From contig CANNUR010000085.1 of NCBI GenBank assembly GCA_947523045.1, positions 1 through 10,859 on the forward strand: 10,859 bases of DNA, in the 5' to 3' direction. The stretch comes from an uncultured Prosthecobacter sp. Lineage in GTDB: Bacteria; Verrucomicrobiota; Verrucomicrobiia; Verrucomicrobiales; Verrucomicrobiaceae. The notes beneath the pieces were generated by a model that made no database searches, was not told the DNA's origin, and saw only the letters and a program-made list of their open reading frames with translations. Position numbers and translations under genes: made by a program. How positions within the stretch are numbered: position 1 is the first letter of the stretch; every line of letters begins with the position of its first letter. Positions 4,182 to 6,632 of the stretch are shown here, piece after piece.

Positions 4182-4643
4182 TCAGGCGCCGACGTCCAGG
4201 CCGGAGACGATCTGCGGATAGTCGGTCAGGTTGACGAGGGCGATGCCATAGCGCTGGGCAATGGCGTCGGCCTCGGACTCGGGATAGTCGTCGCGGTAGT
4301 ACACCTCCTTCACCCCGTAGGCGCAGAGCATCTGCATGCAGCTCGTGCAGGGCTTGGTCGTGCAGGCGACCAGGCGCACGTTGCCGCGGGTGAACAAGCT
4401 GCAGAGGTTGACCTCGGCGTGCAGCATGTACTTGCGGCGCTCATCGCGGTCGGCCCAAAACTCCTGGGCGGCGTCGTAGCCGGGTGCCAGGCCGTTGTAG
4501 GCGGTGCCGATGACCCGGTTGTCGAAGTCAATCGCCACCGCGCCGACCTTGCGGTAGGGATCCTCGGAGCGCAGGCTGGCGACGTGGGCCAGGGCCATGG
4601 CGTACTCCGGAATGGTCAGGCGGGTGCGGGGCGAGGCGGACAT
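4182..4643 (-). CDS. dCMP deaminase-like zinc enzyme
   Basis: A 153-aa cytoplasmic protein of the cytidine/deoxycytidylate deaminase family, most like dCMP deaminases that convert dCMP to dUMP and so feed dTMP synthesis. The zinc site is complete: HAE at 75-77 (H75 ligand, E77 proton shuttle) and PCTSC at 98-102 (C99 and C102 ligands). The N-terminal half has the family pattern SEDPYRKVGAV (26-36) and AYNGLAPG (48-55), which supports dCMP deaminase over free-cytidine deaminase. The ATG at 4643 is preferred: the frame stays open to a TTG at 4739, but that extension has no family similarity and runs into the operator region. No clear Shine-Dalgarno is seen. The gene is divergent from the small gene at 4762 across the AT-rich control region, so it may share regulation. 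Other cytosine or guanine deaminases of the same fold cannot be excluded. Confidence 0.88.
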   Translation of the reverse strand: MSASPRTRLTIPEYAMALAHVASLRSEDPYRKVGAVAIDFDNRVIGTAYNGLAPGYDAAQEFWADRDERRKYMLHAEVNLCSLFTRGNVRLVACTTKPCTSCMQMLCAYGVKEVYYRDDYPESEADAIAQRYGIALVNLTDYPQIVSGLDVGA

Positions 4644-4676
4644 GGCGCATTCACCGCGGGGCGGCGACGAGGTCAA

Positions 4677-4688
4677 ACCCGGATTGCA
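4677..4688 (+). repeat. 12-bp intergenic repeat ACCCGGRTTGCA, copy 2
   Basis: ACCCGGATTGCA is copy 2 of the word at 2872-2883 (11 of 12 bases identical). It lies 34 bp upstream of the deaminase start, in reverse relative to that gene. On the deaminase strand a TTGACC follows it, a possible -35 element, but no convincing -10 is visible. Confidence 0.25.
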
Positions 4689-4716
4689 GGCAGCTGGCGA
4701 CCGCAAATTTTCAAAA

Positions 4717-4730
4717 AGTTCACTTGAACA
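4717..4730. promoter_or_regulatory. LexA-box-like palindrome, site 1
   Basis: AGTTC-ACTT-GAACA matches 9 of 10 fixed positions of TGTTC-N4-GAACA, the 14-bp LexA-binding motif I recall as reported for Verrucomicrobia. The core GTTC-N4-GAAC is perfect. It lies between the divergent deaminase and small gene and covers a TTGAAC (4724-4729) that could be the -35 element of the rightward promoter. A second site with the same score starts 38 bp downstream. Confidence 0.5.
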
Positions 4731-4738
4731 GTGTTTCA

Positions 4739-4753
4739 ATGTTTATTAAACAT
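4739..4753. promoter_or_regulatory. Perfect AT-rich palindrome ATGTTTATTAAACAT
   Basis: A perfect 7-1-7 inverted repeat sits midway between the two LexA-box-like sites. Its half-sites (TGTTT/AAACA) resemble theirs, but the spacing is one base shorter. It contains the best -10-like hexamer for the rightward gene (TATTAA at 4744-4749). It could be a third operator for the same or another dimeric repressor. Confidence 0.4.
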
Positions 4754-4754
4754 G

Positions 4755-4768
4755 TGTTTCCATGAACA
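4755..4768. promoter_or_regulatory. LexA-box-like palindrome, site 2, over the start codon
   Basis: TGTTT-CCAT-GAACA matches TGTTC-N4-GAACA at 9 of 10 fixed positions. It overlaps the ATG at 4762-4764 of the small gene, so a bound dimer would cover the likely transcription start and first codons. The adjoining GAAC-A-GTTC (4764-4772) adds another short palindrome that runs into the coding sequence. Confidence 0.5.
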
Positions 4769-4953
4769 GTTCCAAACACGCCAAGCTGCCGCGCCTGCTC
4801 GATCACCTGCGTCACCTCATCCATGCCGACTCGGGTCGCCTGGTCCGCCGTCGCGATCTCTACGACCCGAACCAGGGCGAGGTGCAGTTGGAGCTGGAAT
4901 TGGAGCCGCGCGCCAAGGGCAGCTTCTGGCGCGGCGGGCAGGCGCGGGGCTGA
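4762..4953 (+). CDS. Small protein of unknown function under a putative SOS operator
   Basis: A 63-aa protein I do not recognise. Support for it being real: an ATG start, a high proportion of G/C at third codon positions through its length (like its neighbours), and a dedicated AT-rich control region just upstream. The N-terminal half is basic and probably helical (KLPRLLDHLRHLIHADSGRLVRRR, about 8-31, rich in Leu, His and Arg); then come an acidic-polar middle with an alternating QLELELE stretch (about 43-49) and a basic tail ending in FWRGGQARG. There are no cysteines, signal peptide or membrane segment, so it is likely cytoplasmic and may bind nucleic acid or a partner protein. No Shine-Dalgarno is seen, and the -10-like TATTAA is only 12 bp before the ATG, which would give a nearly leaderless mRNA. 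It converges on the DUF1501 gene with an 8-bp gap. The SOS link is inferred from the operator motif alone. Confidence 0.6.
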   Translation: MNSSKHAKLPRLLDHLRHLIHADSGRLVRRRDLYDPNQGEVQLELELEPRAKGSFWRGGQARG

Positions 4954-4961
4954 GCCGTCTG

Positions 4962-6386
4962 TCAGGCGAGGATCTCGCGGATCACCTTGCCGAAGTCGCG
5001 CTCCAGGCGCTTGCGACCCGGCACCTCCATCCGGTGCGGGTTCAGGCCGAGCTGGTGCAGGACCGTGGCGTGAATGTCGGTGACGTAGTGCGGGTGCTCC
5101 ACCGCGTGGAAACCAAGTTCGTCGGTGGCGCCGTGGATCGTGCCGCCCTTGATGCCGCCGCCGGCCATCCAGACGCTGAAGCCGAAGGGATGGTGGTCGC
5201 GGCCGTCGGCGCCCTGCGAGCCGGGGGTGCGGCCGAACTCGGTGCCGAACACCAAGAGGGTGTCGTCGAGCAGGCCGCGCTGCTTGAGATCCTTGAGCAG
5301 GCCGGCGATCGGCTTGTCGACCTGCGCGGCCAGCGCGGAATGGTTCTTTTTCAGCCCGGAGTGGGAATCCCAGGCACCGGCGGCGCCATCGCCGTGGAGG
5401 ATCTGGATGAAGCGCACGCCGCGTTCGGCGAGCCGGCGGGCGACCAGCAACTGGCGGGCAAAGGGTTCGGTGACCTTCTGGTCGAGACCGTACAGCCGCT
5501 TCGTCTCCTCGCTTTCGTCGGCGAGGTCGAGCGTTTCCGGCACGGCGGTCTGCATCCGGTAGGCGAGGGTGTAACTGCGCAGGCGCGCGGCGAGCATGGC
5601 ATCGCCGGGGTGCTCGGCGGCGGCGAGTCGGTTGAGACGCTGGACGAGGTCGAACTGCGCGGCCTGCTGCGGGCGGGCGATGCCGCCCTCGGAGGTGGCG
5701 AAGGCGAGCGGGTTCTGCGGATCGACGCTGAGTTTCACCGCGTCGTGGGCCGGGCCGAGGTAATGGCCGTCGCGCGTGTCGAAGAAGCGCGGGCCCATGC
5801 TGACGAAGGACGGCAGGTTGTCGGTCAGGCTGCCCAGCCCCCAGTTCACCCAGGCGCCGAGGGTGGGGGCGCGCGGTTCGAGCATGTGGCGACCGCTGTG
5901 GAACTGCACCTGAGCGCCGTGATTGTCATCGGTCGTCCACAGGCTGCGGATGAAGGCAATTTCATCGGCGCAGGAGCCGATGTGCGGAAACCAGTCGCTG
6001 ATCTCGACCCCGCACTGGCCGTACTTCTGGTAACCGATCTGCAGCGGGTAGATGACATTGCGCTGCTGGCCGTTGGCGTCGTTGACGACGACGACGCGCA
6101 CCTTCTTGAGCTTCTCCGGATCCTGAACGTCCTTGAAGGGCGTTTCGCCGATCGATTTGCCGGCGTAGCGGTTGAGCGCTGGTTTCGGGTCAAAGCTCTC
6201 CATGTGGCTAACGCCGCCGCGCATGAACAGCCAGATGACCCGCTTCGCTTTCGGCGCATGCATGGGCAGGCCGTCGGGCGGTCGCCCGCCACCCGCGGCG
6301 CCTGCGTCACGCGCCAGCAGCGCCTGCAGGGCGATGCCGGACAGGCCGGTGAGGAAGGGGCGGCGCTGGAGGAGGTCGGGGAACAT
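4962..6386 (-). CDS. DUF1501 family protein with twin-arginine leader
   Basis: A 474-aa protein of the DUF1501 family, which has a sulfatase/alkaline-phosphatase-like fold and is abundant in Planctomycetes and Verrucomicrobia; no biochemical role is firmly established. The ATG at 6386 gives a leader with [18 protein letters not shown] (R8, R9), a twin-arginine pattern; the frame stays open further upstream, but only through the repeat-filled intergenic region. Family blocks: [21 protein letters not shown] (residues 49-69, the opening motif), [16 protein letters not shown] in the middle, FGTEFGRTP near 380-388, and [21 protein letters not shown] leading to the [18 protein letters not shown] block near the end. 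It normally follows a DUF1549/DUF1553 gene; here that partner (6993-10139, same strand) is 606 bp upstream with an opposite-strand gene in between. The two products are often assumed to work together in the periplasm. Confidence 0.92.
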
Positions 6387-6457: not shown

Positions 6458-6490
6458 GTGGGCTCGTTCGCCAGAACGAGGGCTTGGAGG
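6458..6490 (+). repeat. Hairpin repeat, copy A
   Basis: GTGGG, then a perfect 7-bp stem CTCGTTC (6463-6469) / GAACGAG (6474-6480) around a GCCA loop, then GGCTTGGAGG. It is identical to copy C through the stem-loop and GGCTTGG. It is REP-like: short, intergenic, and present in both orientations. Confidence 0.75.
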
Positions 6491-6510
6491 AGGCGGCATC
6501 GTGGGTGATC

Positions 6511-6545: not shown

Positions 6546-6577
6546 GTAGGCTCGTTCGCCAGAACGAGGGCTTGGGC
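6546..6577 (+). repeat. Hairpin repeat, copy C
   Basis: GTAGG, stem CTCGTTC (6551-6557) / GAACGAG (6562-6568) around GCCA, then GGCTTGGGC. It starts 88 bp after copy A in the same orientation. The three copies A, B and C fill most of the 246-bp divergent gap between the DUF1501 gene and the membrane-protein gene; I see no strong promoter in that gap. Confidence 0.75.
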
Positions 6578-6632
6578 AAGGCGGCGTCGACGCGTCGCTT
6601 GCGTCCCGAGTGCCCGCGTGTTTCGTTGTCGC

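Follow-up and report, generated by a model that had tools for sequence, protein, structure and literature searches.

Analysis of a 10,859-bp stretch of DNA from an uncultured Prosthecobacter sp. (hereinafter, the window), together with related genomes, points to a LexA-controlled family of small, basic proteins that is very likely real and is represented in the window by a 63-amino acid member. The best reading of this family, with a probability of roughly two in three, is that its members are SOS-induced microproteins that bind the beta clamp and modulate the replisome. The operators are conserved, the same motif is found at recA and lexA of the relatives, the small gene evolves under coding constraint, and its tail is nearly invariant; from these features of the sequences, we infer LexA binding and repression, induction by DNA damage, docking of the product to the clamp (DnaN), and competition for it.

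The two palindromes, AGTTCACTTGAACA (box 1, positions 4717-4730, divided as AGTTC-ACTT-GAACA) and TGTTTCCATGAACA (box 2, positions 4755-4768, divided as TGTTT-CCAT-GAACA), were confirmed by a motif scan of the window: as the sequence-only reading had it, each matches 9 of the 10 fixed positions of TGTTC-N4-GAACA, i.e. contains one mismatch, and their centres are 38 bp apart. That reading also held the proximity of the two sites to be striking. They are the only sites in the window with at most one mismatch; when up to two mismatches are allowed, five sites were seen against 2.44 expected, and five or more were obtained in 22 of the 200 shuffles. The window alone is thus suggestive and compatible with chance, so that the evidence for the boxes rests on comparison across relatives. 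Box 2 spans the start codon of the small gene (ATG, 4762-4764) and hence does not lie upstream of the transcription start but coincides with or follows it; boxes likewise overlap the ATG at L128, L135, L138, L144 and L146. Of the further proposal that the boxes bracket the small-gene promoter, what survives is the presence of two boxes before and at the gene; box 2 covers the ATG, and no sigma-70-type consensus promoter was recognised within 4600-5000. The inter-box stretch (4731-4754, plus strand) is presumed to be the promoter region of the small gene by its position alone. A central palindrome between the boxes, ATGTTTATTAAACAT, is not kept in L107, the corresponding locus of a relative, and was dismissed as a chance occurrence. 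Elsewhere in the window, a 44-nt direct repeat (6458-6501 and 6546-6589, 89% identity) contains an inverted repeat, CTCGTTCGCCAGAACGAG, in each copy; no Rfam match was found in the window.

Loci of relatives (68 in total) were collected with the deaminase encoded next to the small gene as the query, the closest being L001, labelled as a Prosthecobacter MAG, with 93% deaminase identity; 12 of their genomes were read for recA and lexA. The exact TGTTC-N4-GAACA motif is present at recA in all 12 genomes, starting 102 to 124 bp before the RecA domain match, and 11 of the 12 also have it upstream of their LexA domain match (some of the recA and lexA loci are in reverse orientation); the only miss is G011, with no exact box upstream of its LexA domain match. 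The identification of the palindromes with the LexA motif is thus borne out at these two genes of the relatives. In the 4.0-Mb genome of G001, the closest relative compared, the only two exact sites are those at recA and lexA. Sites with at most one mismatch number 41 genome-wide (about 1 per 98 kb; the reversed control pattern gives 13) and include the same pair before the small gene and one site upstream of a Y-family polymerase gene. Four exact sites were detected in G007, at recA, at lexA, in front of a UmuD-like gene located behind an SRAP gene, and at L154 (G007:C3:200060). Besides its boxed RecA match (L081), G001 encodes a second one (L069, G001:C41) without a LexA box, and the second LexA-domain matches L083, L096 and L097 have no box either. 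Binding of the palindromes by a different repressor that recognises the same half-site is very improbable: second LexA-domain matches are indeed present in some relatives (G004, G002 and G007), but the same motif is found at recA, lexA, the UmuD-like gene and the UmuC-type genes of the relatives. TGTTC-N4-GAACA, exact at recA and lexA here, is reportedly also the motif published for the Verrucomicrobia LexA/SOS regulon by Erill et al. 2016; to our knowledge, the small gene is not among the targets of that regulon. PMC8565304 cites Erill et al. 2016 as its reference 7.

The boxes are conserved together with the small gene. Between the window and L107 of G001, 28 of the 28 box bases are identical (14 of 14 in each box), against 16 of the 24 bp between the boxes; for the small ORF in the same pair, dS is 1.84, so that synonymous sites are near saturation, and dN/dS is 0.05. 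Among the 68 deaminase loci and the window, 27 contain the small gene next to the deaminase gene, each with a box no more than 200 bp away (one mismatch or none at 25 loci, two mismatches at the other two), whereas none of the 42 deaminase loci without an adjacent small gene has a box with two mismatches or fewer. In the small-gene family as recovered from the taxonomic family of G001 (one member in each of 51 genomes), a box is located between -85 and +9 in 51 of the 51 members (16 exact, 33 with one mismatch, 2 with two mismatches), compared to 0 of 51 with a site of at most two mismatches in the control stretch from +300 to +394. The retention of the palindromes upstream of orthologues that the sequence-only reading implied is thus observed throughout this set. 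In shuffled upstream stretches, the best site had one mismatch in 0.7% of the cases and two mismatches in 6.4%, so the two loci with two-mismatch boxes are weak by themselves. The seeds of the profile used to find the family (A1) came mostly from beside the deaminase, where boxes had already been noted; the independent test consists of the 18 loci among the 51 (L131-L148) that are boxed despite showing no deaminase match within the sequence retrieved, and of the second family described below. At one more locus, L129, about 1.5 kb separates the small gene from the deaminase match. Because the boxes track the small gene and are kept where the deaminase is missing, they belong to the small gene.

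In 25 of the 51 family genes, the start region contains at least two sites with no more than two mismatches, and the spacing of paired boxes varies, from 38 bp in the window to between 14 and about 29 bp at other loci, which disfavours a single fixed cooperative geometry. The best box carries at least one mismatch in 35 of the 51 members, and both boxes in the window are imperfect as well, which may make repression less tight than at recA.

The divergent gene of the dCMP/cytidine deaminase family (4182-4643, minus strand; PF00383, E-value 6.8e-15), suggested at the outset as a possible second target of the boxes, is probably a bystander, because deaminase loci without an adjacent small gene are uniformly boxless; the same contrast led to its rejection as the real SOS target. 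It is extremely unlikely, then, that the boxes serve the deaminase, with a role in the nucleotide pool, and that the small ORF is incidental. The boxes do sit between the two genes and, where these adjoin, co-regulation of both is possible, but the boxless deaminase loci, the boxed small genes without a deaminase match and the strong coding constraint on the small ORF all argue against this explanation. In the window, 8 bp separate the stop of the small gene from the end of the DUF1501 gene, and 118 bp separate its start from that of the deaminase gene, leaving no room there for a partner such as an adjacent antitoxin gene. In relatives, the neighbours vary, as seen at 13 loci among L131-L148 for which frames of at least 90 codons were listed; at some of these, the neighbours resemble citrate synthase or QueE (a reading of the sequences, with no domain scan).

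The 63-amino acid ORF (4762-4953, plus strand), which has homologues in relatives, is a real gene, as judged from its coding constraint: dN/dS ranges from 0.04 to 0.35 in 12 of the 13 pairs compared, the synonymous sites being saturated in the remaining pair, and this rules out a spurious ORF. Members of the family are 45 to 93 residues long, with database homologues reaching 102, and their net charge is between +1 and +11 (median of +5 in 39 members). The AlphaFold2 model, produced with 51 sequences and of low confidence (mean pLDDT 64.8), consists of a single predicted helix at residues 9-27 (4786-4842, plus strand) and an extended tail, with no further helix or strand. The description of the protein as unannotated proved accurate, in that across the 51 members no significant match to a known domain was detected (best E-values of 0.05 in Pfam and 0.045 in NCBIfam). 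No sequence match was found in the PDB at E-value of 1 or less, and no such protein is described in the titles and abstract openings of the open-access matches listed. A phage origin was considered and rejected, given that tblastn yielded no match at E-value of 0.01 or less among 50,697 phage records.

The gene is not the orphan it was initially taken to be. In the taxonomic family to which G001 belongs, profile A1 of the small protein matches 52 of 68 genomes, or 51 after removal of one spurious match. Left out of the counts as spurious are the match in G054 (L149; neither motif nor box) and a second match in G020 (L150; no ORF match); L101 of G043, where the small-gene frame ends after 33 residues, before the tail, and the box is retained, was kept in the counts. 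An enlarged profile, A2, matches 55 of the 386 genomes of the order. Its new weak matches in G014, G189 and G203 are all boxed and have the tails QLEFPF, QLEFPW and QLEFQW, respectively; the weak match in G112 has neither box nor tail. Profile A4, which includes the G189 and G203 sequences, matches 24 of the 195 genomes of the family of G189 at E-value of 0.05 or less. Seventeen A4 matches carry a Q[LM]E[LF]x[FW] tail, and close to the start of every one lies a box that is exact or has a single mismatch; two of the 17 were seeds, and the tail, unlike the boxes, is part of the profile. None of the 7 matches without the tail has such a box (one of these has a two-mismatch site, and one gave no ORF match). 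In L319, L320 and L324, very basic small ORFs that end in QLELPFR lie behind an exact LexA box and are possibly an independent lineage of the same design.

Box-driven small ORFs were also found in G013 and G021 (tails QLELGI and QMELDL), where A1 detected nothing. These came from a scan for boxed small ORFs with a clamp-type tail in the 12 genomes without a convincing A1 match (in G054, there was only the spurious one), which yielded two hits from 116 strand-resolved exact-box anchors; of 2320 random anchors, 3 gave a hit with the strict motif and 10 with the loose one. The scan covered 58 loci and only part of the boxes of those genomes, and is therefore not a census. A phylum-wide search retrieved matches in 10 of 387 genomes at E-value of 0.01 or less, of which five were already known as members; none of the remaining five has a box with at most one mismatch, and among these, L331 has QLEFDF in a long frame and a two-mismatch site. 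Altogether, the small-gene family is represented in at least 54 of the 68 genomes of one taxonomic family and sparsely in another. In the remaining 14 of the 68, no member was found by any route used, and some of these may be incomplete assemblies.

The nearly invariant tail of the protein conforms to QLE[LF]x[FLW] and fits the hexameric beta-clamp-binding motif, one of the short motifs (QLxLF or QLxLxL) through which many bacterial proteins attach to the replication clamp; the hexameric form is given as QLxLxL in PMC4564189, with a related consensus in PMC3716654. In the window, this putative clamp-binding motif is QLELEL (residues 42-47; 4885-4902, plus strand), and variants in relatives include QLELDF, QLEFPW and QLELPF. 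In 39 of the 39 aligned members, Q42 and E44 are invariant, position 43 is L or M, position 45 is L or F, and position 47 is F or L, so that the second, fourth and sixth positions of the motif are hydrophobic throughout. The motif starts 12 to 51 residues before the C-terminus in these members, not at the end, whereas in most members of the second family it is at, or a few residues from, the C-terminus; no helix or strand is predicted around it in the low-confidence model. The assignment concerns only six residues, a short motif, and the tail contributes to the profiles by which members are found. With these caveats, clamp binding by the microprotein is probable.

An internal comparison with 15 polymerase loci of the same genomes, in one of which (L301) the polymerase was not read, shows the same class of motif; the labels UmuC-type and DinB-type are our own reading. 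The six boxed UmuC-type proteins (L293-L298) have QLELF or QLDLF, and L292, partly read, has QLDLF. In the weaker IMS-family proteins L299 and L300, the scan found no clamp-type motif, so this control is not universal; no IMS match was found in G010. In six DinB-type proteins (L170-L174 and L176), the C-terminus or its vicinity holds QLRLGI, QLRLPI, QMVLPF or QLVLPL; at the other loci of this reading, no frame was read, or the frames were cut, long or of another kind and without such a C-terminal motif. The microprotein thus has the motif class of UmuC, DinB and ImuB, the motif of the latter being QLPLWG (PMC10421592), and the UmuC-type genes share the LexA boxes; however, those proteins are polymerases or polymerase-like, whereas here the motif stands nearly alone on a 63-amino acid protein. 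A separate observation concerns L228 of G007 (G007:C2, 2765-6970), which encodes a 1402-amino acid protein that combines a Y-family polymerase (IMS, IMS_C) with a C-family DnaE (PHP, alpha, finger, HHH), downstream of the SRAP and UmuD-like genes with the exact LexA box. Similar frames are present in L288-L291, and IMS frames of 1405 to 1490 amino acids were seen in 5 of the 12 genomes, the domain scan having been made for L228 alone.

Small lineage-specific checkpoint proteins are often present in SOS regulons, and the microprotein, once induced in the SOS response, could inhibit something other than the clamp, for instance the division machinery (a role like that of SulA or SidA), the predicted helix contacting a division protein or the membrane and the QLE motif serving some other interaction. 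This is improbable given that the near-invariant residues follow the clamp-motif pattern and resemble those of the UmuC-type and DinB-type proteins encoded alongside in these genomes.

The clamp-directed reading can be put as a self-contained SOS cassette that would comprise one or two LexA boxes and a gene that encodes a basic microprotein, roughly 45 to 100 amino acids long. LexA bound before and across the start codon would keep the small gene off, and upon DNA damage, RecA-stimulated cleavage of LexA would turn it on. The product would have a helix at its N-terminus and, in a flexible tail, the hexameric motif, and during the SOS response, the tail most likely would dock in the DnaN cleft and alter which proteins use the clamp. 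The simplest effect would be competition with the replicative polymerase; alternatively, a partner bound by the helix would be brought to the clamp. The main rival to competition is this bridging function, whereby the helix would bind a polymerase or repair factor that lacks a clamp motif of its own, for example, the UmuC-DnaE fusion of some relatives, and tether it in the manner of ImuB in the mycobacterial mutasome. Such bridging to the clamp is established for ImuB in mycobacteria (PMC10421592), and no clamp-like motif was found in three of the five fusions read (L228, L289 and L291; the other two, L290 and L288, have QLPLEQ and QVPLLG, respectively). We nevertheless consider the adaptor unlikely, because the long fusion frame was found in 5 of the 12 genomes compared with the microprotein in 11 of those 12, and no conserved gene partner was found among the neighbours read.

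Precedents for clamp-directed proteins include SocB of Caulobacter crescentus, which acts on DnaN via the usual clamp-binding motif (PMC9690074), and RipA of Streptococcus pneumoniae, which also acts on DnaN (PMC12795458). Both, likened here by description, come from toxin-antitoxin systems, whereas the microprotein is preceded by LexA boxes and its locus in the window lacks space for a partner gene.

Eukaryotic p21 is a damage-induced PCNA-binding protein with its motif in the C-terminal part. The microprotein would resemble it in being damage-induced and in carrying a clamp motif in its C-terminal part; this is an analogy alone, with no homology and with a different clamp and a different regulator. 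The p21 PCNA-binding peptide is mentioned in PMC9690074. Tentatively, and with the odds somewhat against it, the family might be a bacterial counterpart of p21, a damage-induced, stand-alone microprotein that would serve mainly to occupy the clamp and thereby slow or remodel the replisome during the SOS response, occurring in two or more families of a single order and everywhere accompanied by its own LexA boxes.

A conserved microprotein left unnamed by annotation would represent a new output of the DNA damage response outside the model phyla. Should it bind DnaN, it would be a minimal natural protein governing access to the replication clamp, would offer a natural lead for clamp-directed inhibitors, and would allow a direct test of a damage-induced clamp-competitor checkpoint in bacteria, as in eukaryotes. 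Taken together with the clamp-type tail, the boxed family suggests that Verrucomicrobia have a small regulator of replication that is induced by DNA damage.
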